Shown piece by piece: positions 34,215-46,633 of a stretch of 64,000 bases of DNA. Every line of letters begins with the position of its first letter. The first letter of the stretch is position 1. Origin of the DNA: Paenibacillus oceani (lineage in GTDB: Bacteria; Bacillota; Bacilli; Paenibacillales; NBRC-103111); assembly GCF_014705615.1 (NCBI RefSeq), contig NZ_JACXJA010000019.1, positions 1 through 64,000 of the forward strand, read 5' to 3'. The position numbers were made by a program, and so were the translations under genes. The notes beneath the pieces were generated by a model. The model made no database searches and was not told the DNA's origin. It was given only the letters and a program-made list of their open reading frames with translations.

Positions 34215-34310
34215 TTGTGGAAATATGTGGACGAGAATGAATATTTTATGTGATACTACTGCTGATGGATGACTTTGGACCTATGCTACCGATAAAAGGG
34301 GAGATTGATG

Positions 34311-35615
34311 ATGAATAAACATTGGATCACTTTGAGCGCTTTGTTGTTAATTGTTTCGGCCTGCGATTCGACGACCACGAGTGCAAGTGCCCATACGGGC
34401 TTGAAGGCGGAGCCTGCTGCGGCGGCGTCTTCTGGCGCTGCCAAAAACGTCGTGCTGACAGACATTAGCGGGCATTGGGGCGAGACAAGTATCCAGAAGG
34501 CGGTCAAGAAAGGGTATGTGGATGGGTACGAGGATGCGACGTTCCGTGCGGAAAAAGAGGTATCGCGCGCAGAGTTTATTAAGATGGTGCTTACGGCGAT
34601 GGGACCGGATACGACGGCGGCGAAGCCGGCAGTTGATTCGAAGCAGGCGGGTTCAGCGAAGGAATTGACCGTATCGGCGGGAGAGCCGGCCAATTGGTAC
34701 GATTCGTATGTGCAGAAGGCGCAGGAGATCGGCATTCAGCGCAAGGAAGATTTCAAGGAAGGCGACATGAATACCTCTATGACCCGGCTGGAAATGGCCC
34801 GGATCGCCGTTCGCGCTACTGACCCGACCCTCCAAAAGCCCGAAGTTCGTATTGACGACCGTTCGGTCATGTACAATGCGACGAAGAAAGGGTTAATACA
34901 AGGATTGGAAGCGGGAGATCTGGCTCCGGACAACACCACGACGCGGGCGCAGTCGGTCACGATCATCGAGCGGGTTTTGACCGTGAACAGCGGCGGTACG
35001 CTGGAAGTGGATAAGTATGCGCTGGGAAATGCGGAGCTAGCGCTGAAAAAGACGAATATTTTTACAGTTATGCCGGAGTTTTTTGGGGGCAAAGGATTTC
35101 CATGGAATATGGACAATTTGACGATTGAAACGAGCGATGGATTGTATAAAGGCGTCGTAACCCGTGTTGTTGCTGTGGATTTGGAGGATCCGAATGACCC
35201 GAATCGGGGAATTATGGGGGATTTGAATGAGCTGGTTTGGCGTGGGGGAGGAAATGAATACTTTAATGTTCTGGATTATCCGGATAGCTATCTTTTCGTA
35301 GTTGAGACGCATACAGAGTTTAATAATGATGAGTCATACACACTATACCCAAAAAGAGCAAACGGGCTTGATTTCTCACTTTATGGCATTCTTAGGCCTG
35401 ATTCGAGCGCTTTAAGTGAAGGGAAATTAAACTCATGGGCACGTCTTTATAATAAAAACGATACGCAGAAAGCGCTCAAAGCCATGATTTTGCCGAAACA
35501 CGGAATACAAACTGATGGGTCCATAACATTACGCTTGCGGGTTACCTCTCATCCTTCTGCAGGGCCTAATTACAAAGACGTATTCGAATTAGTTACGCCA
35601 AAACTGATTGAGTAG
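34311..35615 (+). CDS. SLH-domain lipoprotein
   Basis: This protein is about 434 aa. AAGGGGAG lies 7 bp before ATG 34311; ATG 34308 and TTG 34305 are in frame just upstream. The signal peptide MNKHWITLSALLLIVSAC gives a lipobox VSAC. One clear SLH domain (LTDISGHWGETSIQKAVKKGY, about 47-97) and two weaker ones (about 125-165 and 175-225) follow. The C-terminal 200 residues form an unrecognised domain (FFGGKGFPWNMDN, ETHTEFNNDE). From about 35100 the DNA becomes clearly richer in A/T and stays so into the next gene. The stop is 11 bp from the giant protein gene, so the two are co-expressed and probably interact at the cell surface. Confidence 0.75.
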   Translation: MNKHWITLSALLLIVSACDSTTTSASAHTGLKAEPAAAASSGAAKNVVLTDISGHWGETSIQKAVKKGYVDGYEDATFRAEKEVSRAEFIKMVLTAMGPDTTAAKPAVDSKQAGSAKELTVSAGEPANWYDSYVQKAQEIGIQRKEDFKEGDMNTSMTRLEMARIAVRATDPTLQKPEVRIDDRSVMYNATKKGLIQGLEAGDLAPDNTTTRAQSVTIIERVLTVNSGGTLEVDKYALGNAELALKKTNIFTVMPEFFGGKGFPWNMDNLTIETSDGLYKGVVTRVVAVDLEDPNDPNRGIMGDLNELVWRGGGNEYFNVLDYPDSYLFVVETHTEFNNDESYTLYPKRANGLDFSLYGILRPDSSALSEGKLNSWARLYNKNDTQKALKAMILPKHGIQTDGSITLRLRVTSHPSAGPNYKDVFELVTPKLIE

Positions 35616-35626
35616 GCGGTGGACAG

Positions 35627-38600
35627 ATGTTTCGAACTCTCAAGAGGCGGATCGCCTATCTCTGCCTGGCTCTCATGATTGGTAGTCTTCTACCACTTGA
35701 CCTTATTATTCCGGAACTGCGTTCATTATCCAGAGCAGCACAAGCGGCAGGGGAAACCACTGAAATAGTTATGTTGAACTATAACGGTACAGCTCACTGG
35801 GAAGGGTATTCGAAAGAACAAGTCCTTAATCCAACAACTCAAATCGAATTCAGACAAGGAAAGAAAATTAAAAACGCGGTATTCGTAAATGGAGACGGAT
35901 CAACTAAGCCCATCCCGCAGGCTATTGGGCAGGCTAGTTGGTCCGGTAGTATAAGTACGACAGGGCTGGAGATCAAGGTCACATCAACCAACAATTCCGA
36001 GACACATACGTTTTTCGCATGGTACCGATACAGCTATACTAATCCTAAAAAGGGCTGGTATGCAAATAAAGAAGATATGCACGGAAATATTAAACAGGTG
36101 TACTGCGAAGGCGGTAAAACAGAGTATTATGGCGGCGTTGAGATGTACGAGTTTCCTTCTTGTACACAGGAACTGGAGTTCCCGGCTAATCGAACAAAGG
36201 CATTCTACGATAGTACTCAAAAATATTACGACGATAATCATTTAAAGGTTACAAGTTTTAAAACTCCTAAAGTGGAAGAAGAGGTCGAAATTGAAGGCCC
36301 TGAAGGCACATATGGCACCTCAGAAGGAATAGGGACGAAAAACAAGATTAGTAACGCGAGACTTGTCCAGAAAGATCCAAGCGATGTGAATAGCTTCTAT
36401 ATCCGATACTCACAGTCATTCTTAGATTATCCTAACGATGGAACACCGCCACCCAGCAGCGCCATCAAAAACCCTGGCGCCCTTGGAGCCAGGATGATGG
36501 CCTACTTTGCAGCCTTTACCTTTGATTTAGAAGGCCGAACATACCAGCACCCAACTTATATCACCGTCACCTACGAGGACAACGTCCTTCCGGAGCCGGA
36601 CATTGCAGATATTAAAGTGACCGCCGCACAGAGCTGTATCTTGGTCGGCGTCAACATGAGCTTTTACGTCAGCGTGACGAACCACGGAGCGCCTTACTCC
36701 GGGGCGTTTAATGCGAAAGTAAGCGTGGACGGGACCGTCATCAAGACGATTCCGTTTAACGGCATCGCGAACGGGGAAGTGAAGAAGGACGAATTTCTGT
36801 ACAAGTTCACGGCAGCCGGATCGAAAACATTTACCGTAACGGTCGATACGCTGCCCGGAGAGAAAAACACCGGGAACAACTCCAAGACGTTCTCCTTTGA
36901 GGGGAAGGTGTCCTGCAGTGACCCCGGTCCCGATCCGGAGCCCAATGATGGTCCGGAAGTGATTACAGGGGACTTTATGTTTGTATACCCGTCCCCGGTC
37001 GAGTACGGAAAAAGCCAAGTATACCGGCCGCTGGATGTATCGGTGAAAGGGAAGAAAGACGGAAACGTGTGTACGCTTGCTCAATTGCTTTGGACCTCGA
37101 CTCAAGGGAGCAAGGTCCATACGGAAGATGCAGGATCTAGCATTTATTCGGGGGGGATCAGCGGGCCGCCATACCCGGCTGGCATCGGGGGTGGAATCGT
37201 AAATGTTACGATGAAGATAACGTCCTCCTGTGGCTCTACAAAGGTCGTGACGAAGCCGTTCGAAATTGTCGTACCTTCCGGCAACAGTCCTCCCGTGTTC
37301 TTTCCGGGCTGGTTTGCAGGCGGCAACAGCTTTGCCTTTCCCTCGATCAGCCAAGTTGTAGTCGGCAGTTATGTCGATCTCGGCATCATCCATAATCCGC
37401 TGGACGATCCGCCTACTCCTTACGATCCGGAAGGCGACGGTATTATCTACTATTTCGATTTCAAAAACACGACCAGCACTTGGCTGAAACAGCTGTACGA
37501 AGATCGGGGGTTTTGGTCGTACGACGAGCATTTCCGGATGCTGAAAGCGGACGTGCTCGGGTCTCATTCCATCAACGTTTGTGCTCAGGACGTCCGCGGC
37601 GCGGACGCCGGATGTAAAACGACTACGCTGAATGTTGTTCCACCGGAACCGATTCCGGTCATTACAGGAGGGGATAACGCCGTTGAAGGCCGTCCGATCC
37701 CGGTCCCGTTCAGTTGCGCGGACAGCTATACGCCATTTGGAGAAATTACAAGCTGTCTGTGGGGTGGAGACAAGCGTACGATGTATCCGGAATCCGGCTA
37801 CTACACGGTGTACCTCGACGTGTTTAATAGCGCGGGGCTGAAAAACTTGCCGGAGGATCAGGCGTCGAAGACGATTTATGTCAGACCCGACTTGCCGCCT
37901 GTTCCGGACTTGGATAACCCCGGCATCGGCATTCGCAACGTGGCACTCCATTTCAGGGAGAAATCGTACAGTCCGGATGACGATCCGATGTTCATCTCCA
38001 AAGTGAGTCTGATGTATGACAGCAACAATGACGGTTCTTTTAGCGACGAGGCGATCGAGCCGGTCGAGCTGGATACCGGTCGAAAGTTTAGCTTCACGCC
38101 GACGAAGGTAGGGAAGTACGCGATTCGGGTATTCGCCCAAGAGTCGGTAGGATACAAAAAATCGGCGACGAAAGACTTTTATTTTGAAGTGATCAACGAA
38201 GCGCCGGAAGCGCCGTTTTACGTCAAAGGATCAGACTTCCAACCGCCGCAGGTTGAATCCAAGGCATTCAGCCCGGAAACGCTGCTATACGATCCGAGCT
38301 GGACCGCTTCTTCGATCTCGATGGCCGCAAAACCGAAGGAATACAATATCAACAGCAGTGAGAATGCGCTGGAAGTGCCGGGCACACCGATTTCGCAAGG
38401 GTTAGCTCCAACCAATAGCAATGTCACCAGCAAAGTGCTGACTTGGGGTTGCGGAGATATTCTTTACGGGAACTGTTGGGGCCTTGGCTCCATGTTGAAG
38501 CCGTATGTATTTACCGGTTCCAATGCGAACGGCTGGCTGAACCTGAACAGCACAGCATCGAACATCTCCCGGACACAGGCGATGCAAAATCATAGTTCGG

Positions 38601-41600
38601 AAAGTATATGGCCCAACAGCTACGTCGTGACCCCCAATTTTGAAACCGGCCGGGTGATGTTCCGTTCCAACAATCGATGTACTTGTAATACGTACGGCTA
38701 CTATTATCACACCTATGTATTTAATATTTCGGACGTCGAAAACGCAGCCTTCCGGGCGCAAGGAGGAGGGACACCGGCATTACCGACACCGCTGTACTTT
38801 AGAGAATATTTCGTATCGTTTAACACGCCGAATTACGATAAAGTGCTGCCACCGGACCCGCCAACAAATATTTGGACCTATCCGGCAGCCAAGCCGATGT
38901 ACGAGATTGGTCCTGTATCCCGAATGGAAGGGCTGCCTGTCGTGACGGATCAAGTCGTTCAGCGTGTGAAGTCTTATGCCAATAGCCGTAGTTACGGCAC
39001 AGACTACAAGGGAAATCCGTATGTGTATGCTTGTTATTTAGACAATGACAATAACACGAATTGGCAGTTTCCCTACGCTTGCGATTTACAAAAGAAAGAC
39101 CGGAACGGCAATCTGCTCTGGACCATACCGAAAATAAAACGTCTGTATCGGTATGATTCGCAAATCCAGAACGGAGTGGTCGAATATGTAACGGCCGATA
39201 ACAATAAAGCAATCATAACTGTTCCAGGTAGCCCTGGCGGCGAGCGAGCCAAAGTATTTGATAACAACACGGGGGCTTTACTCTATGAGATCCCGCAGCG
39301 CGATTACGGCGGTGCGAGTCAACTTGTAACCGTGCATGACAAAGTCATCTACTGGACCACCACCATTAAAAGCTCAGATGGCGATGTTGTCAACTACTAC
39401 AATTACATGAACATTCTTGATTTGAACACCTTTTCAATCGTTACTGTGTTGGCCGGGGAGTCGCGCTATTACAATGAAGATTCCTACTTCATTTATGGCG
39501 GCCTCATGCTACCAGCAACCGTAACGGCGGACGGCAAGATTTTATTTACTAACCATATCGGCCTTCAAGTGTACGATCTGAACGGAAACAAACTTACAGA
39601 ATATACGAAACCAAGCAATATCTATGGATTCACAGATCGCGCCCCACTGGTTATGGAAGACGGAACGGTCGTAATTGAATTCCGGTATGATTCCGGTTCG
39701 ACCTTCTGGGCCTGGGTGGTTAAAACGGATGTCGATCCACATACAGCAGATCTGTACAATTTCGGCCAGTTGAGCAATCCGAATGAAACGCTGGATAACG
39801 GCGAGGTAGCAGCAGGCTTTAAACTCAATCACGAGAACTTTGCAAATACGGTTTCCTTTGGATTAGCGGCCCGGATGGTCGATCACCGGAACATGTACAG
39901 ACTGGAGGTAACGGACGAGAAATCCAAAATCGTAAAAATCGTAGATGGCGTGAAAACGACGCTGCAGGAAGTCTCTTACCCAATCAGCAAAGGTAACTAT
40001 TACGATGTGAAGCTGAAACTCAGCGGGGACCGTCTGAAGGGGTATGTAGGCGGGGTACCTCTCCTGGATGTTACGGATTCGACGTTTTCCTCCGGGATGA
40101 TGGGGCCGTATTCGGAAGTAACGCATGTTTTGATCAAAGGTTTCCATTACACGAAGTACATCGGCAACGAGGGCAGCACGAAGAACACGGCCATTGTAGG
40201 CGCTCCGGTAGAATATGTGATCAGCTATTCCGACCTGGAGAACGATCCGGCCATAACCGACTGGAGCCGGTGGACGTTCGATCATGTGGAGCCGAACAAG
40301 TTTTTGGATGCCGGCGACGGCTACTCCGGGTTATCCGCGTTTCACGGTCAAATGGTGACATCGCCGCATCTGATCATGGATAAAGTCGGTCGGTACAAAG
40401 TTTCCTATCAGGTTCCCGACGATCCGTCACCAGCCGGATACGAGTATCCGAATGGGACGTTCGGCAGCTATCGCAAATATTCCGATCTGCAGACGGAATT
40501 CGTCATCATCCACCGCCGGCCGATCGCCGTATTCACGGTCGCTCAAAACCCGGATTATACCATTGGCTGGACCGACACGAGCTACGATCCGGACCGCTGG
40601 CTGGCGCCATGGCACTATTCGACGGAAGCAACCGGGATCGATTATGCGGCTACCCGCGGCGTCATCGAGCGCAGGTACAATTACACCGATCCGGACGGCA
40701 TCACCCAGTTCGGGAAACTGACAAGGCCGTCGAAAAAAGGAGCGTACACCGTACGGCTGGCCGTCAAGGACGAGTACGGGGCTTGGAGTGATTGGGCCGA
40801 GCAAATGATCAACGTATCGCAGCCGGTGCCGAACACCCCGCCGACCGTGTTGCTGACGTTCCCAAGCGGAAGCCAAACAAGTCCGTCTTACGTGAACACG
40901 CTGCAGCCGACGCTGACATGGAACCAGCACGACATCGATCCCGATACGACGTTCGCTGCGTTCCACTTGATCGTCCGGGACGAATGGGGCACTGTGGTCC
41001 GCGATACCGCCATCAAGCCGCAAGGGACAACCTCCAATACGGCACAGTGGACGATGGATACAAACCTGGCGATCGGGCAGAAGTACCAGGTTCAGGTGAG
41101 GGTGAGCGACGGCAATGATTGGTCGGACTGGTCGAATATCGGCTGGCTCGTGACGAACCGGCCGCCCGAAGCCGTGATGACGTACCCAGACGGAACGCAA
41201 GCTCAGCCGACGGTCGTGAGCACGATACGGCCGGTGTTCCAGTGGTCGCAGACGGACCCCGACCCAGGCACCACGTTCCATTACTTCGAGCTGGAAGTGT
41301 GGAACGAGGCTAACGATACGCGTCTCCTGACATCGGGACAGCACTGGCAAGGTTCCACTCTATCGGCGGGAACATGGACCGCTGGCAGCGATCTGCCGGG
41401 CGGACAGAAGCTTCGCGTACGCGTCAGGGTCCATGACGGTTACGTCTGGTCCGGATGGTCCGCGGATACTTGGCTGTATGTGAATCGGGTGCCGGTCCCG
41501 GACTTTGACTGGGCCCCAAAGCCGATTTGGGAAGGGGATACCGTTTATTTGAAAAATATGTCTTCCGATCCCGATGGCGATGTACTGACTTCCCGCTGGG

Positions 41601-42166
41601 ATATTGAAACGCCGGTCGGAGACAGGTTCGTACTGATCTCGACGGACGCCTTGTTCATCTTCTCGGTACCGGGTGTTTACACCGTCACGCTGACCGTTAG
41701 CGACGGCTATGAGACTGTCAGCACAACTAAAACGCCAGTTGCCGCGCCGCTGACGATCTTGTCCGATGTCAGCCATACGCCGCAGTGGCGCGACATTCAT
41801 GAAGCCAAAGGTCACAATACGACAGCCGCGCCCAAAGACTTTTATTCCGGCGAAGTGTTCGTCGTTCAGACCGAAAGCTCCCCGGCGCCCGTGGCCGAAG
41901 CGGTTGCCTGGATCGATACGGTGGGGAAGGACGGCGGCCGCTTTTTTGTCAGCGAATTGCTTATTGTGGAGGACGGGTCAAGCACGCGATTCTCCGGACG
42001 GCTTTTCGATGAGAGATGGATGTCGGTTACGCAAGGCTTCCCGGAAGCTGAACAGATCGTCCATTTTCGCATCCGTTACCAGAACGGCGTCGTCAAAACG
42101 GAGGACATCCCGCTCCGAATCATCGGCAATATCCAGGAAGCGGTCCAGGTTCACCGGAGACAATAA
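35627..42166 (+). CDS. Giant secreted multidomain protein (CARDB, PKD, Fn3-like)
   Basis: This 2179-aa protein has a signal peptide (hydrophobic 10-28, cleavage near 40). Order: unrecognised N-terminal domain (about 45-320); CARDB-like domain (about 324-426, PDIADIKVTAAQS...NTGNNSKTF); PKD/Ig-like units (about 445-870); a Cys-containing region (to about 1160); a beta-propeller-like stretch (about 1150-1380); a LamG/DUF1080-like domain (about 1380-1515, GDRLKGYVGGVPLLDV); PKD-like (about 1515-1735); two tandem Fn3-like repeats (about 1735-1955, each with QPTLTWNQHD or RPVFQWSQTD and VRVSDGNDWSDWS or VRVHDGYVWSGWS); and a PKD domain (about 1955-2043, YLKNMSSDPDGDVLTSRWD). No enzyme motif is evident. 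Adhesion, matrix or polymer binding is likely. The 5' third is A/T-richer than the rest. The ribosome-binding site is weak. Confidence 0.75.
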   Translation: MFRTLKRRIAYLCLALMIGSLLPLDLIIPELRSLSRAAQAAGETTEIVMLNYNGTAHWEGYSKEQVLNPTTQIEFRQGKKIKNAVFVNGDGSTKPIPQAIGQASWSGSISTTGLEIKVTSTNNSETHTFFAWYRYSYTNPKKGWYANKEDMHGNIKQVYCEGGKTEYYGGVEMYEFPSCTQELEFPANRTKAFYDSTQKYYDDNHLKVTSFKTPKVEEEVEIEGPEGTYGTSEGIGTKNKISNARLVQKDPSDVNSFYIRYSQSFLDYPNDGTPPPSSAIKNPGALGARMMAYFAAFTFDLEGRTYQHPTYITVTYEDNVLPEPDIADIKVTAAQSCILVGVNMSFYVSVTNHGAPYSGAFNAKVSVDGTVIKTIPFNGIANGEVKKDEFLYKFTAAGSKTFTVTVDTLPGEKNTGNNSKTFSFEGKVSCSDPGPDPEPNDGPEVITGDFMFVYPSPVEYGKSQVYRPLDVSVKGKKDGNVCTLAQLLWTSTQGSKVHTEDAGSSIYSGGISGPPYPAGIGGGIVNVTMKITSSCGSTKVVTKPFEIVVPSGNSPPVFFPGWFAGGNSFAFPSISQVVVGSYVDLGIIHNPLDDPPTPYDPEGDGIIYYFDFKNTTSTWLKQLYEDRGFWSYDEHFRMLKADVLGSHSINVCAQDVRGADAGCKTTTLNVVPPEPIPVITGGDNAVEGRPIPVPFSCADSYTPFGEITSCLWGGDKRTMYPESGYYTVYLDVFNSAGLKNLPEDQASKTIYVRPDLPPVPDLDNPGIGIRNVALHFREKSYSPDDDPMFISKVSLMYDSNNDGSFSDEAIEPVELDTGRKFSFTPTKVGKYAIRVFAQESVGYKKSATKDFYFEVINEAPEAPFYVKGSDFQPPQVESKAFSPETLLYDPSWTASSISMAAKPKEYNINSSENALEVPGTPISQGLAPTNSNVTSKVLTWGCGDILYGNCWGLGSMLKPYVFTGSNANGWLNLNSTASNISRTQAMQNHSSESIWPNSYVVTPNFETGRVMFRSNNRCTCNTYGYYYHTYVFNISDVENAAFRAQGGGTPALPTPLYFREYFVSFNTPNYDKVLPPDPPTNIWTYPAAKPMYEIGPVSRMEGLPVVTDQVVQRVKSYANSRSYGTDYKGNPYVYACYLDNDNNTNWQFPYACDLQKKDRNGNLLWTIPKIKRLYRYDSQIQNGVVEYVTADNNKAIITVPGSPGGERAKVFDNNTGALLYEIPQRDYGGASQLVTVHDKVIYWTTTIKSSDGDVVNYYNYMNILDLNTFSIVTVLAGESRYYNEDSYFIYGGLMLPATVTADGKILFTNHIGLQVYDLNGNKLTEYTKPSNIYGFTDRAPLVMEDGTVVIEFRYDSGSTFWAWVVKTDVDPHTADLYNFGQLSNPNETLDNGEVAAGFKLNHENFANTVSFGLAARMVDHRNMYRLEVTDEKSKIVKIVDGVKTTLQEVSYPISKGNYYDVKLKLSGDRLKGYVGGVPLLDVTDSTFSSGMMGPYSEVTHVLIKGFHYTKYIGNEGSTKNTAIVGAPVEYVISYSDLENDPAITDWSRWTFDHVEPNKFLDAGDGYSGLSAFHGQMVTSPHLIMDKVGRYKVSYQVPDDPSPAGYEYPNGTFGSYRKYSDLQTEFVIIHRRPIAVFTVAQNPDYTIGWTDTSYDPDRWLAPWHYSTEATGIDYAATRGVIERRYNYTDPDGITQFGKLTRPSKKGAYTVRLAVKDEYGAWSDWAEQMINVSQPVPNTPPTVLLTFPSGSQTSPSYVNTLQPTLTWNQHDIDPDTTFAAFHLIVRDEWGTVVRDTAIKPQGTTSNTAQWTMDTNLAIGQKYQVQVRVSDGNDWSDWSNIGWLVTNRPPEAVMTYPDGTQAQPTVVSTIRPVFQWSQTDPDPGTTFHYFELEVWNEANDTRLLTSGQHWQGSTLSAGTWTAGSDLPGGQKLRVRVRVHDGYVWSGWSADTWLYVNRVPVPDFDWAPKPIWEGDTVYLKNMSSDPDGDVLTSRWDIETPVGDRFVLISTDALFIFSVPGVYTVTLTVSDGYETVSTTKTPVAAPLTILSDVSHTPQWRDIHEAKGHNTTAAPKDFYSGEVFVVQTESSPAPVAEAVAWIDTVGKDGGRFFVSELLIVEDGSSTRFSGRLFDERWMSVTQGFPEAEQIVHFRIRYQNGVVKTEDIPLRIIGNIQEAVQVHRRQ
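40833..41490 (+). repeat. Tandem Fn3-like coding repeat, two copies
   Basis: Two consecutive units of about 325 bp (40833-41160 and 41161-41490) encode the same plan: a PPT/PPE start, FPSG or YPDG, QP.LTW / RP.FQW, DPDTTF / DPGTTF, a central beta region, QVRVSDGNDWSDWS / RVRVHDGYVWSGWS and a final VTNRPP / VNRVPV. The copies are diverged at the DNA level. Confidence 0.75.
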
Positions 42167-42346: not shown

Positions 42347-43306
42347 TCATAGCTCCGTAGGGTCCATAGCGGGCTGCCCGGCGGGACCCAACGTCAGTTC
42401 CTGGAACTGCTCCTTCCACGGCGACAGAGCGGGCAGCCCGTCCAACGTTTCTACGGCCTTTTGCATAAACAGCGACTGGATCACCTCGGTATACTCGGCG
42501 CATCCCGATTCGGCGATGTACGCCATGCATGCTCCCTTGTGCTGCAAAAACTGTTCCCGGGTCATCGCGCCCGAGTAATAGTCCTGAATCGGGGCGAACC
42601 TGCCTTCCGTATCGTCCCCGAGCAAGTACAAGATCGGCAACGTCTTTTTTCGGTGCAGCAGGTCGTTTTTCAGATCGTAACGCAAGACATCCCGCATATC
42701 GTTGGACAGTTGATACACAACCCCGACGTAACCGGCCAGCAGCTCCATCTGCTCGGCGATGTCACCGCCTGCGGGAGCTGCCCCGTAACCCATGTAATAG
42801 GCTAACTTCAGCAGCATGCACGATTTGTGCTGCACGACGGAGATGTAATCCTGCTCGGTTTCGATATCGTTCGTTAAGTCGCGATACTGTCCGTTTACCG
42901 CATGCATGACGATTTGGCTAATCTCACCGGGCTCGGGAAACCGCTCCTCCGGATGCTCCGCCTGCAATCGGCCCAACTCGGCGATCGCTCCCATCAGCAG
43001 ACCCATCACTGCATTCAGCGCCAGCTCGGGCGGGCATTTCATCCAGCTTTTGTCCATATTGTCGCGGTCCTGCAAATCGTCGGCGATATCCAGCGCGAGC
43101 ACGAGCAGCTCCGTCAAAGCCGCCAGCCGGTCGATATGGGGCGAACGTCCGCCATACATGAAGTGGGCCAGCCGCGTCGATTGTCCCCAGCGCGACGTTT
43201 CCCCCGCCTTGTCGGAGGCGAACGCTTTCAGCAAGGCGTTGAAATCCGCTACCGGTACGAGCCGGTCGATCGTTTGCTCGATTTCGTTCAACAGGGCAGC
43301 CTGCAT
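42347..43306 (-). CDS. comQ: ComQ-like isoprenyl transferase (pheromone-modifying)
   Basis: This 319-aa member of the polyprenyl synthetase superfamily starts at ATG 43306; GGAGGA lies 10 bp upstream, and an in-frame TTG directly precedes the ATG. The first aspartate-rich motif is DDLQD (76-80). The second is NDMRD (202-206), followed by DLKNDLLHRKKTLPILYLL, an arrangement typical of ComQ proteins rather than of ordinary farnesyl synthases. ComQ attaches a prenyl group to a tryptophan near the C-terminus of ComX. It is the last gene of a minus-strand operon after a ComP-like kinase and a ComA-like regulator; its start is 3 bp after the comA stop. Length agrees with ComQ (about 300). Confidence 0.8.
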   Translation of the reverse strand: MQAALLNEIEQTIDRLVPVADFNALLKAFASDKAGETSRWGQSTRLAHFMYGGRSPHIDRLAALTELLVLALDIADDLQDRDNMDKSWMKCPPELALNAVMGLLMGAIAELGRLQAEHPEERFPEPGEISQIVMHAVNGQYRDLTNDIETEQDYISVVQHKSCMLLKLAYYMGYGAAPAGGDIAEQMELLAGYVGVVYQLSNDMRDVLRYDLKNDLLHRKKTLPILYLLGDDTEGRFAPIQDYYSGAMTREQFLQHKGACMAYIAESGCAEYTEVIQSLFMQKAVETLDGLPALSPWKEQFQELTLGPAGQPAMDPTEL

Positions 43307-43309
43307 CAA

Positions 43310-43972
43310 TTAGGGCTCCTCCGGAAGATCGGCGTACATCGGACTCCGCACAAATTTCTCGATCGCCTGAATGCGGGTGGAGACGCCGAACTTGTCGTAT
43401 ATTTTTTTGAGATAATTGTCTACCGACCGTTTGCTGACATGGATCTGATCGGCGATCTGTTCATGGGTAACGCCTTTGACCAGCAACGACATAATTTGCA
43501 GCTCGTCGGCGGACAAGACGACCGTTTCCGTCTCGGCGGGGCGGGGCACCCGGTTCGTTACCCGCATCTGCTGATACAGCGGGAGCGGAATCATCGTATG
43601 GTTGTCGAGAATGCAGCGGACGAGGTTCTGGATCGTCGTCTCTCCGGACTCTTTCGAAATGATGCCGCTAACCCCGATCTCAAGCAAGTGGTTGTACAAG
43701 TCGGCGACATCGATTCCGGTAAAAATGACGATGTGCGTCTGCGGGTAGCGCCGCTTCACTTTCTCGGCGACCAGACTGCCGTACTGGTCCGGCATATGGT
43801 AATCGAGAAACAGCAGCTCCGGCTGATGCTCTTCAACCAGCTCCAGACATTGTTGTCCGTTCGACGCAACTCCTACGACGGTGATGCCTTCCACCTGCTC
43901 CAAAATCAGTTTCGTCGCCCGAGCTACAACGGGATGATCGTCTACGACTACCGTCCTGACGGTTCGTTTCAT
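43310..43972 (-). CDS. comA: ComA-like response regulator (NarL/LuxR family)
   Basis: This 220-aa protein has a receiver domain (about 5-125) with acidic pair D11-D12, phosphoacceptor D57 in FLDYHMP, T85 in IFTGID and K107 in ISKES. The C-terminal LuxR-type HTH is at about 150-210 (LSADELQIMSLLVKGVTHEQ, then SKRSVDNYLKKIYDKFGVSTR). ATG 43972 overlaps the kinase stop (ATGA), the sign of a cognate pair. In B. subtilis, ComA activates srfA and other genes in response to ComX; the targets here are unknown. A ComA-type box was not found in the locus. Confidence 0.75.
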   Translation of the reverse strand: MKRTVRTVVVDDHPVVARATKLILEQVEGITVVGVASNGQQCLELVEEHQPELLFLDYHMPDQYGSLVAEKVKRRYPQTHIVIFTGIDVADLYNHLLEIGVSGIISKESGETTIQNLVRCILDNHTMIPLPLYQQMRVTNRVPRPAETETVVLSADELQIMSLLVKGVTHEQIADQIHVSKRSVDNYLKKIYDKFGVSTRIQAIEKFVRSPMYADLPEEP

Positions 43973-46305
43973 GCAGTCTTTCCCCCTTTCATCGGAAACG
44001 AAATACGGATACTGACTCCTTCCCCTTGATGAGCGTCCAGCTCCAACTGGCCGTTCAGATGAAGAACACGGCTACGAAGCTGTTCGATCCCGACTCCGGA
44101 CGTGCCGATATCCGGCGCCGTCATCTCTTCCGGGTCGAAGCCGACGCCGTCATCCTGGTAATGCAGAACGACTTGTCCGCTTATCGTGGTGAGCCGAAGC
44201 GAGATAAAGGAAGCTTCTGAATGCTTCTTCGCGTTATTGATTAATTCCTGCACGATTCGGAAAATATGGCGTTTCGTTTCCAGATCGCGGCGTTCGACCG
44301 CAATCGCGCCGGAGGCGTCGAAGCGGATCTGGAACGGGCTGCTGAACGATTCCCGTTCAATAATTTTTTCGATCGTCCGGACAAGCCCGATTTCCTGCAG
44401 CAGATAAGGGTTAAGATCGAAGCAGCTTTGACGCAGGTTCACATTGATAATTTCAATATAATCGACGAGTCCGTGAATCGTCTCCTTGGCGTCGGCCGGA
44501 AGTCCCAGCCGTTCCCCAAGCGCCGTCAGCTTGCGCTTCAAGAAGAACAAGTCCTGCATTGTCGTATCGTGCAGATCGGAGGCAATTCGCACCCGCTCCT
44601 GTTCCTGAAGCTCGAAGGTCAGTTTGCGGAACCAGTTGAAATCGTACGCCTCTTGCTCGTTCGGCAGCTGGGAGGCGAGCCGGTTCAGCTTCACGGTCAG
44701 CTTGCGGATCAAGTAGATGTTCTCCAGACTGACGGCCAAATACGAGATAATAAGACTCAGCCATTGCACTTCCTCCAGACCGAGCTTGGTATTCGACTTT
44801 TTCTGGGTCATGATCAGGTAACTCGTATATTCCTCGTGCCGGTTGATTTCGAATTTCATCAGGTTCGGGTGTTCCGATGACGGTTCGCTGGCTACTATTT
44901 TCTCGACTTCCTCCTGATTGATGTCCCCTTCGCGGATCATTTCGATACTGTCGCGATGACGGAACACGATGGCGCCTCCGTACACCTGCAGCGTATTCAC
45001 GATATCGCTCAGAAAGAGATCCTTCAGATCGCGGAAGCTGGATATGGACGTCAGGTCTTTCGATATTTTTTTGAGCGCTTCCTGCAAGTAATGTTTACGC
45101 GGAAACATCACCCGCTCCAGGCGCGTGTACATGTTCTCGACGGAATATAGAACGAAAGTTAATATAACCAAGACAACGATAAAGGAGAAGAAAAAATATT
45201 TAAGGTTGATATAGTCTTGGAAAATCAAGGCGTTGACCAGTACGATAGCTCCGCTCGGCAGCAGCGCGACAATAACGGTGAACAAAAGCCGGCGAAGCAC
45301 GATATCGATGTCGTATAATTGCTTGGTTAACAATAGATAGGCGAACGAAAGCGGGAAAAAAAGCACAAACCATCCCATATACAGCGAGCTGACCCACTCT
45401 ACGTTATACAACACAAGCGGGAGAAAGGATAAAGTGACGATCGGAATGAAAGAGATGATCAGCGCAACCCAGACTACTTTTATAATGGTGGATAAATAGG
45501 AATTGCTCTTATAATTTTTGATATATAACCCGGCTAGCACGGCGAAACTTAACGAAATCGAAAGGATAAACATAATAATATTGATCATGGAAGTGATGCG
45601 TGTCATATAAAACGCTGCGAAGCTTTCGAAAAAAAAGGTGCACCGGAACAGAAAATTGACGGCAACCGATATGTATAAATATTTCAAGTATCCTCGCGGC
45701 AAATCCTGATCGCCTTTTTCTTTAAAAAACTCGATTAAGAAATGCAAGAAAACGACCGGTAATAAGACGAGAAACGTATTGATTAAGTTTTTGCCAAGCG
45801 CGTCTCCGCGTATGGAGGCCCCAAGACTCATAAAAGTGATCCCGATACAGACGAAAACAAGAGCAAGAAGAGTAGCGGATTTGGAAAATTTGATCCGGGA
45901 ATTAATGAACAGCGCTATGGTAAAGCAGACGATTTCGGCTATGAAGGGCAGCAGCGAATAGGAAAGCGAGTTCGAGACGCCTTCCGTAGTAACGGTGAGC
46001 TGTTGATGGTTCCGTTCGATTATAATTTCATCGACCTGTTCAATCGAGCCCCACTTTTTGATAGGAGGATGTTCGGAGGGAGGAACTCCGTCTACCGAAA
46101 CGATCGTATCTCCGATTCGGATGTCCAGATGCTGGGATACGCTTTCCGGATCGAGACTTTCTACCACCCATTCACTGCCAGGATTTTTAGCCAAATTAAT
46201 CCCTATATACGGGTAGCGGAAGGTCAGGTAGGCAAACCAGATTTGAATGCCGATGAGAGCGAGGATGATAATCGGCAGTTTTCGACCCCTCAAAAAAAAA
46301 AACAT
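43969..46305 (-). CDS. comP: ComP-like membrane histidine kinase
   Basis: This 778-aa kinase (B. subtilis ComP is 769) has about ten hydrophobic segments: 10-28, 115-136, 145-163, 175-195, 207-226, 238-262, 275-298, 306-327, 338-360 and 368-388. The long loop between the first two (29-114) contains a PDZ-like stretch (VVESLDPESVSQHLDIRIGDTIVSVDG), the same architecture as ComP. A GAF-like linker (about 415-535) follows. The HisKA_3 motif QEQERVRIASDLHDTTMQDLFFLKRKL has phospho-His 579, and the ATPase has ELINNAKKHSEAS (N box) and DDGVGFD (G1). Codons 2-5 contain an 11-nt T tract, a possible slippage site. It is divergent from the candidate pheromone gene. Confidence 0.78.
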   Translation of the reverse strand: MFFFLRGRKLPIIILALIGIQIWFAYLTFRYPYIGINLAKNPGSEWVVESLDPESVSQHLDIRIGDTIVSVDGVPPSEHPPIKKWGSIEQVDEIIIERNHQQLTVTTEGVSNSLSYSLLPFIAEIVCFTIALFINSRIKFSKSATLLALVFVCIGITFMSLGASIRGDALGKNLINTFLVLLPVVFLHFLIEFFKEKGDQDLPRGYLKYLYISVAVNFLFRCTFFFESFAAFYMTRITSMINIIMFILSISLSFAVLAGLYIKNYKSNSYLSTIIKVVWVALIISFIPIVTLSFLPLVLYNVEWVSSLYMGWFVLFFPLSFAYLLLTKQLYDIDIVLRRLLFTVIVALLPSGAIVLVNALIFQDYINLKYFFFSFIVVLVILTFVLYSVENMYTRLERVMFPRKHYLQEALKKISKDLTSISSFRDLKDLFLSDIVNTLQVYGGAIVFRHRDSIEMIREGDINQEEVEKIVASEPSSEHPNLMKFEINRHEEYTSYLIMTQKKSNTKLGLEEVQWLSLIISYLAVSLENIYLIRKLTVKLNRLASQLPNEQEAYDFNWFRKLTFELQEQERVRIASDLHDTTMQDLFFLKRKLTALGERLGLPADAKETIHGLVDYIEIINVNLRQSCFDLNPYLLQEIGLVRTIEKIIERESFSSPFQIRFDASGAIAVERRDLETKRHIFRIVQELINNAKKHSEASFISLRLTTISGQVVLHYQDDGVGFDPEEMTAPDIGTSGVGIEQLRSRVLHLNGQLELDAHQGEGVSIRISFPMKGGKTA
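46292..46302. repeat. 11-nt homopolymer tract at the start of comP
   Basis: Eleven A on the plus strand (T on the coding strand) span codons 2-5 of the kinase gene, directly after the ATG. Confidence 0.9.
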
Positions 46306-46327
46306 ATAATCACCTACAATTTGGTAT

Positions 46328-46377
46328 TTGAACTTCCATAATTTTCTGGTACTATTGGATTAGTAACGGATTATAAA
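46328..46377. promoter_or_regulatory. Overlapping divergent promoters of comX-like and comP genes
   Basis: For the plus strand, TTGAAC (46328-46333) and TACTAT (46350-46355) with an extended TGG form a plausible promoter. On the minus strand TATAAT is at 46371-46376. The dyad TACTA-N6-TAGTA (46350-46365) lies between them and could be an operator. The intergenic space is only 94 bp. Confidence 0.4.
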
Positions 46378-46399
46378 AATAAGGAGGAATATCCTAAGT

Positions 46400-46567
46400 A
46401 TGCAAACTTTAACTTGGTCCCCGCAACTGCAACTGACTGTTAGAAACTCGAGAAAAGAAAGCGTTACCGAAAACAAAATGTTGTCGCCGTCCGAGAATGC
46501 AGCTGTCCGTACTGTGCTGAATAAAGAAGGACTCAAGGCCAAAGTCCAACAATTGTGGTGGTCCTAA
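46400..46567 (+). CDS. comX: Candidate ComX-like pheromone precursor
   Basis: This 55-codon ORF starts at ATG 46400, with AAGGAGG at 46381-46387 (a long spacing of 12 bp), and is followed 19 bp later by a strong terminator. The product begins MQTLTWSPQ, is hydrophilic and basic in the middle, and ends KVQQLWWS. B. subtilis 168 ComX is also 55 aa with the prenylated Trp third from the C-terminus; here Trp53 and Trp54 occupy the third- and second-last positions. The N-terminal part does not resemble known ComX, so the claim rests on size, the C-terminal Trp and the adjacent comP-comA-comQ operon. ComX is cleaved and prenylated by ComQ; a C-terminal peptide with a modified Trp would be the signal. 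It is not in the standard open-frame size range, so it is easily missed by annotation. Confidence 0.65.
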   Translation: MQTLTWSPQLQLTVRNSRKESVTENKMLSPSENAAVRTVLNKEGLKAKVQQLWWS

Positions 46568-46586: not shown

Positions 46587-46633
46587 AAAAAAAAGAGAGG
46601 TTGTATATTTTCATATACAGTCTCTCTTTTTTT
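46587..46633. terminator. Bidirectional terminator
   Basis: AAAAAAGAGAGG-TTGTATAT pairs with ATATACA-(G)TCTCTCTTTTTTT around a TTTC loop. It ends the comX-like gene and, on the other strand, the LTA synthase gene. Confidence 0.9.

Follow-up and report, generated by a model that had tools for sequence, protein, structure and literature searches.

Prenylated-tryptophan pheromones have been characterized in Bacillus. In the text of a 2014 census, the ComQXPA system comprises four genes on one strand whose local arrangement is "quite conserved", Paenibacillus curdlanolyticus is given with the canonical order, and a few unusual loci are mentioned in which a hypothetical comX, flanked by comQ and comP, is encoded by the other strand (PMC4008528). 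Passages in two P. polymyxa papers give comQXPA homologs as absent (PMC4209062, PMC6052121). The PalXPQ cluster was reported in 2023 as a RiPP cluster of a kinase, a precursor and an enzyme and is described there as conserved in various members of Paenibacillus; as excerpted, the report has PalQ of P. alvei prenylating a C-terminal Trp in vitro, an activity abolished by an alanine added after the Trp (PMC10853753), and a 2026 review, where it names PalQ, treats it as an enzyme tool (PMC13290415). The kind of locus described below is therefore partly reported before, in the 2014 census and as PalXPQ in 2023, and PalXPQ anticipates a large part of the idea. For the particular layout, with a divergent signal gene and comQ in last place, no description was found in the titles or abstract openings of the open-licence papers listed by literature searches.

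The window, a stretch of 64,000 nucleotides of Paenibacillus oceani, holds comP, comA and comQ as one minus-strand run (42347-46305) and a short ORF, X, divergent from it on the plus strand, a layout written here as X/P-A-Q. We put the probability at about 85% that these genes form a peptide pheromone system of the ComX type, rearranged in layout and descended from a Q-X-P-A cassette. X (46400..46567, plus strand), which is supported by its ORF, a test for divergent ORFs and a profile, would be the 55-aa precursor of a ComX-like signal with the end QQLWWS, and its start is separated from that of comP by a 94-nt intergenic region (46306..46399). The run begins with a multi-TM ComP-like sensor kinase of 778 aa (43969..46305, minus strand) carrying HisKA_3 and HATPase_c domains, followed through an ATGA overlap by a 220-aa ComA-like response regulator (43310..43972, minus strand) whose Pfam domains Response_reg and GerE correspond to a REC domain and a LuxR-type HTH, as in ComA of ComQXPA systems. 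The start of comQ stands directly behind the comA stop, with TTG at 43309 and an ATG one codon further; its product (42347..43309, minus strand, 320 aa) matches polyprenyl_synt at 47.1 bits and, by its motifs, trees and model, is a putative ComQ-like tryptophan prenyltransferase with an isoprenoid synthase fold. ORFs, Pfam and the comP-start test all agree with the first-pass annotation of this DNA, which had seen four ORFs at these coordinates and strands, with the overlap, the LuxR-type regulator and a divergent 55-codon ORF ending LWWS, and had read them as the four ComQXPA functions with comQ behind comA and comX divergent. Adjacency of comQ, comX, comP and comA is as in ComQXPA, whereas the one-strand Q-X-P-A order is absent, and because X is divergent and Q comes after A, the locus is filed as a variant and not as ComQXPA proper. 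The cassette is flanked by a sulfatase-family gene and a 2179-aa PKD/CARDB gene, and a family search of six genes further upstream found no family of a ComQXPA-type system. The 2179-aa protein (35627-42166, plus strand), with CARDB, PKD and Ig-like domains, adjoins an SLH-domain gene at 34305-35615 and is likely a large surface protein.

In its topology the kinase may resemble ComP. Its PDZ-like region (residues 47-106; 45988..46167, minus strand) lies between TM peaks 1 and 2, in the first predicted outer loop, so the extracellular PDZ-like loop that had been proposed keeps its position and its family match, PDZ_6 at E 2e-5, although at 24.7 bits the score stays below the cut-off of 27. As to the proposed ten TM segments, a plain hydropathy scan gives ten peaks, of which nine are N-terminal and the tenth falls in the cytoplasmic part; a count of ten would fit the prediction for ComP of B. 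amyloliquefaciens, which has ten TM helices together with a loop of PDZ type (PMC9620489).

Several lines of evidence support X as a real gene. First, an ORF of 35-100 aa with a Trp in its last four residues, divergent from comP and beginning within 130 nt of its start, is found at 80 of the 83 usable comP starts of the same GTDB family (two of these starts belong to one locus, L038), compared with 150 of 4000 random positions drawn from the same loci, coding DNA included. The three remaining starts are those of L115, which has a weak, partial ComP match, and of L124 and L127, which have the canonical order. Next, one profile built from 62 of the divergent X matches 78 of the 80; set A2 holds 62 of 72 non-redundant X. 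A further set, A3, holds 21 of 22 located X, L263 being omitted for its doubtful X. The picks at L091 and L123 have no match to the profile and were discarded as X. When the window's genus is left out of the profile, the window X is nevertheless recovered, at 26.3 bits, and a profile search of all short ORFs matched 83 of 101 loci, while L080, among the 18 unmatched, has an X picked earlier. In the own genome the same kind of search (E <= 1) returned the window X as the sole match and no orphan X elsewhere. Finally, X changes like coding DNA, with 157, 61 and 385 substitutions at codon positions 1, 2 and 3 over 28 pairs of 75-99.9% DNA identity, although the pairs share sequences and the counts are thus not independent. 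The comP-start test, the profile and the locus counts show the short ORF to be retained in relatives, contrary to the lack of conservation that the first-pass annotation had named as an argument against it.

The family of X may be related to ComX at a distance. The columns M1, L10 and the terminal Trp are invariant across the 62 X. The window X has no Pfam match, PF05952 included, and 5 of the 62 relatives match PF05952 with a best E of 7e-4, but the window-type X profile aligns with the canonical ComX profile over 54 columns at an hhalign probability of 93.8 and E 1.7e-7. The NHLP leader family is not among the matches listed for the 62 X (the best 25 of 35 Pfam families and all 13 NCBIfam families); the 13 NCBIfam families match one member each and were taken as chance. 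Among the 78 X that match the profile, the Trp nearest the C-terminus is the penultimate residue in 54, the final one in 22 and the third from the end in 2, and in the window the tail is WWS, with Trp within the last 5-10 residues as in ComQXPA. The earlier statement that ComQ prenylates the C-terminal Trp of ComX is right as to the Trp and wrong as to the C-terminal residue: in the relevant passages of the literature, Bacillus ComQ modifies a Trp third or fourth from the end, and the enzyme of RO-E-2 takes one second to fourth from the end, which makes the WWS of the window X plausible (PMC5331326).

The X/P-A-Q gene order is shared by numerous related species, each tending to have a signal of its own. 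Within the GTDB family of the window, ComQ relatives were found in 84 of 104 genomes (E <= 1e-5), 80 after removal of four weak ones (G022, G023, G067, G076; E 7e-8 to 9e-6) whose matches are probably housekeeping synthases. In 93 neighborhoods fetched from own-family genomes, comP-comA-comQ is the rule; comA is absent between P and Q in seven loci (L039, L041, L043, L050, L060, L075, L089), no ComP adjoins ComQ in seven others (L042, L045, L053, L102, which lies near a contig start, L103, L122, L125), and the comP start was not found in five more (L040, L096, L100, L116, L126). Since some ComQ stand without ComP or X and seven loci are without comA, the enzyme may in some cases act outside this circuit. 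Among 80 named loci, mostly of the same assemblies as the comP-start set and including P. elgii, P. tyrfis, P. alginolyticus, Cohnella and Chengkuizengella, X is on the strand opposite to comQ in 66, co-oriented with Q and P and placed between them in one, and not found in 13. The survey of family and order fits the suggestion of a lineage-specific layout in Paenibacillus-type bacteria. Some loci are peculiar in themselves: L038:53-6924, from a congener, has two tandem X-comP pairs before comA-comQ, with the X tails SYWI and SHWM, and in L126 (G078) the coding regions of comP, comA and comQ are broken into several frames, by decay or by assembly errors.

As to the origin of the layout, most loci examined in f2, another family of the order, and most Bacillus-type loci of the class have the order Q-X-P-A with a known-type ComX, and P-A-Q with an opposite-strand X is found in the six ComP-holding loci (L283-L288) of the families f65, f66 and f67. 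In f66, L284, L285, L286 and L288 have a second, shorter ComP-like frame beyond X from a complete P-A-Q run, and the enzymes of L288 and Chengkuizengella L229 are identical. Three own-family loci (L124, L125, L127) fall on the canonical side, and in L124 and L127 the gene between Q and P is an X that by eye looks canonical in type. Two further loci, L231 of Paenibacillus sp. Soil522 and L319/L321 of G657, are intermediate: they have the Q-X-P-A order but a window-type X, matching the window-type profile at E 5.4e-5 and 0.0011, respectively. In a quick ComQ tree of 76 of 123 rows, labeled by family and order and not by layouts checked one by one, with the genome's three isoprenoid diphosphate synthases as outgroup, 29 canonical-side rows (93) separate from 44 window-side rows that form one clade (99); the canonical side includes L125, L262, L279, L281 and L297, in which X, ComP or ComA was partly not found, and among the window-side rows are six ComQ without an adjoining ComP and L282 near a contig start. 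In a further quick ComQ tree L231 joins the window side at 97, and a careful one places both intermediates there (94/93). In the ComP tree, which is unrooted and has no outgroup, canonical, intermediate and X/P-A-Q rows are each separated at 100/100, and the intermediates branch between the two layouts.

Taken together, the gene order and X type of the intermediates, the 100/100 separations in ComP and the less firm ComQ branches make one rearrangement of an ancestral Q-X-P-A cassette the simplest account, and such a single event is likely, well supported by ComP and uncontradicted by ComQ. A repeated origin of X/P-A-Q, or an ancestral status for it, appears unlikely but deserves some weight, for the ComP tree lacks an outgroup and the careful ComQ tree gives the X/P-A-Q clade without the intermediates only 77/58, so that these do not lie firmly outside it; however, ComP splits the intermediates from X/P-A-Q at full support, and the Bacillus-type loci, which lie outside Paenibacillales, are Q-X-P-A as well. 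The term "rearranged" in the first-pass annotation agrees with the trees and with the two canonical-order loci that carry a window-type X. A locus with a remote ComQ-like enzyme (L299, 98 bits) may have the order X-Q-P-A, which would be a third layout.

Signal and sensor change faster than the kinase part, the regulator and the enzyme, in the manner of Bacillus pherotypes. Identities were compared over 210 pairs with a ComA identity of at least 0.70, which are not independent of each other. Where ComA identity reaches 0.95 or more, which holds for 29 pairs, the means are 0.94 for ComQ, 0.96 for the kinase part of ComP and 0.76 for its sensor part, 0.69 for X and 0.61 for the last ten residues of X. 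The window and three congeners share 0.81-0.87 in ComA, 0.70-0.71 in ComQ and 0.75-0.79 in the kinase part, against 0.44-0.48 in the sensor part and 0.33-0.37 in X. The contrast is also seen in single pairs, such as L058/L079 (ComA 1.00, ComQ 0.98, kinase 0.99, sensor 0.67, X 0.50), and L107/L108 have an identical X and a near-identical sensor, whereas L051/L054, with a sensor identity of 0.63 yet an X tail of 0.90, do not fit a tight match of signal and sensor. The greater variation of X and sensor suits ligand-receptor specificity. It also bears on the notion that the peptide is a prenylated RiPP of PalX type, chiefly a secreted bioactive lipopeptide whose kinase and regulator merely control production or immunity. 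Such a role has the precedent of PalXPQ, a RiPP cluster that includes a kinase and whose enzyme is active on a C-terminal Trp in vitro, and would suit the relatives without comA; it is nevertheless improbable, given that variation is greater in X and the ComP sensor half than in the kinase half, the regulator and the enzyme, and that the neighbors in the window flanks are the sulfatase-family and PKD/CARDB genes and not transporter or immunity genes.

The active-site motifs of the enzyme are those of ComQ. Its FARM, DDLQD, occupies residues 77-81 (43067..43081, minus strand), and the second DDxxD of isoprenoid diphosphate synthases is not intact but reads NDMRD (residues 203-207), part of a pseudo-SARM QLSNDMRD at residues 200-207 (42689..42712, minus strand) with Asn in place of the first Asp; the first-pass annotation had picked out the same two motifs. 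Over 119 ComQ-like rows, 90 window-side and 29 canonical-side (L299 is set apart and also omitted from the later ComQ trees), Asp74, Asp77, Asp78, Asp81 and Gln200 are kept in all, and position 203 is Asn in 118, as opposed to Asp in all three of the genome's own isoprenoid diphosphate synthases. The ComQ tree groups the window enzyme with ComQ and apart from these three, and a position among isoprenoid synthases, which had been set beforehand as grounds for abandoning the idea, was not found with these three as the comparison. The structure predicted for the enzyme has a pLDDT of 91.8; a fold search with it ranks isoprenoid synthases best and Ord1, a tryptophan prenyltransferase, at 29 and below, so that the fold alone is indecisive. 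That the gene encodes an ordinary isoprenoid diphosphate synthase which merely lies beside a two-component system, the short ORF being spurious, is scarcely credible, as the Pfam name polyprenyl synthetase, the PDB sequence matches and the top fold matches, all to such synthases, are set against 47 bits to PF00348 versus 160-233 for the three other synthases, the missing first SARM Asp, a separate tree branch and an X conserved in place and coding, which already contradict it. Side findings of the enzyme searches include a ComQ-like paralog with no adjoining X or ComP in three genomes, at L042 (5995-6933, minus), L045 (5995-6999, minus) and L053 (5986-6915, plus), situated between apparent dnaE and HTH regulator genes named by eye, and, in the own genome, a frame of ~760-796 aa (L003, G000:C78) with an isoprenoid synthase domain in its C-terminal part, preceded by a long N-terminal part.

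The ComA box of B. subtilis has the consensus TTGCGGN4CCGCAA. Used in this form as a regulon marker it was discarded, with one site in the own genome, within a CDS, and a same-spacer site in two congeners that falls within the same, near-identical coding DNA. Separately, L307:3221-5939 (own genome, C36) and L308 and L309 of two congeners share 2.7 kb of 93% identical DNA while congener ComQ is only about 70% identical, which suggests a recent transfer. Upstream of X an AAGGAGG stands at a rather long spacing of 12 nt. An extended -10 of X scores 5 or 6 of 6 in 58 of 80 regions of relatives, compared with 101 of 1600 shuffles; in the window only TGGTACTAT was seen by eye as a -10, a promoter scan of the X-comP region listed nothing, and no comP promoter was identified. 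The promoter common to signal and receptor that the first-pass annotation had envisaged finds no clear support, as the relatives' X has an extended -10 of its own and the offsets of the best two -10 candidates scatter, the commonest value occurring in 17 of 80; a shared bidirectional -10 is therefore not claimed. A hairpin with A/T flanks 3′ of X (46588..46633, plus strand) has a z of -5.29, with 0 of 200 shuffles equally stable, and is a probable terminator, although a consensus terminator scan did not list it.

By analogy with Bacillus, we infer prenylation and signaling by the locus along the following lines. X would be made as a 55-aa precursor, ComQ would put a geranyl or farnesyl group on a Trp at its C-terminal end, and a protease and an exporter would free a short C-terminal lipopeptide. 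ComP would sense this lipopeptide via its variable N-terminal membrane/PDZ part and phosphorylate ComA, and phosphorylated ComA would switch target genes. The layout itself would have come about by inversion of X and a move of comQ behind comA, most simply once, within Paenibacillales. A wider proposal, which we advance tentatively and at a little under even odds, is that X/P-A-Q forms a separate family of prenyl-peptide signaling. This family would have split from the ComQXPA line through a single inversion-plus-translocation, would be more common than any other ComQ-bearing system in its GTDB family, where about 80 of 104 genomes have a ComQ, and would have radiated into species-specific pherotypes, with the prenyl-Trp at or next to the C-terminus, the last residue possibly trimmed, and with the regulator lost in a subset, where the kinase would feed another. 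The occurrence of the cassette in many Paenibacillus as well as in Cohnella and Chengkuizengella loci, with near-identical genome pairs that differ in signal and sensor, allows the evolution of pherotypes, the substrate choice of ComQ and the effect of gene order to be tested directly, and the ComQ/X pairs of the survey are a ready-made set for peptide lipidation.

Among the known systems for comparison is Ord1 (PDB 9v4g, 9v4h, 9v4i), whose fold the predicted enzyme would share at a TMq of 0.67-0.77 among the matches listed; Ord1 also has a Gln before the SARM, but the identity is 16-17% and its substrate, as the review describes it, is free tryptophan (PMC13290415). PalXPQ of P. alvei likewise pairs a kinase with a terminal-Trp precursor and an IDS-like peptide Trp prenyltransferase in Paenibacillus, and in the paper's numbering PalQ would have SARM Asp at Q+3 (D200) and Q+7 (D204), positions at which the window enzyme has Asn, as does its clade, and Asp, respectively; the cluster is reported with three genes and no response regulator, and the PalX precursor combines a leader of NHLP type with a Trp that closes the chain, whereas the window X ends WWS (PMC10853753). 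A search of 392 genomes for the PalX core DNVRRFFW gave one match, in a 14-codon frame, taken as chance. The unusual loci of the census (for example B. cereus VD102 and L. fusiformis ZC1) are similar in having an opposite-strand comX for which Trp is the sole clear comX likeness, and differ, as described, in that comX lies between comQ and comP while comQ of the window stands behind comA (PMC4008528). The last comparison is with ComQXPA of Bacillus subtilis and relatives, in which Q-X-P-A lie on one strand and X is not divergent as it is here. Further differences are the window-type leader M..I..SP.L...V..LK, a last Trp that is usually last or second-last, and a window X outside PF05952. This system and the window locus share the four predicted functions, a Trp near the precursor C-terminus, a HisKA_3/HATPase_c kinase, a REC-GerE regulator and the FARM and pseudo-SARM of ComQ, and Bacillus ComP is also described with a PDZ loop (PMC9620489), while the order of variability A, P, Q, X is much the same here as given in the census (PMC4008528).
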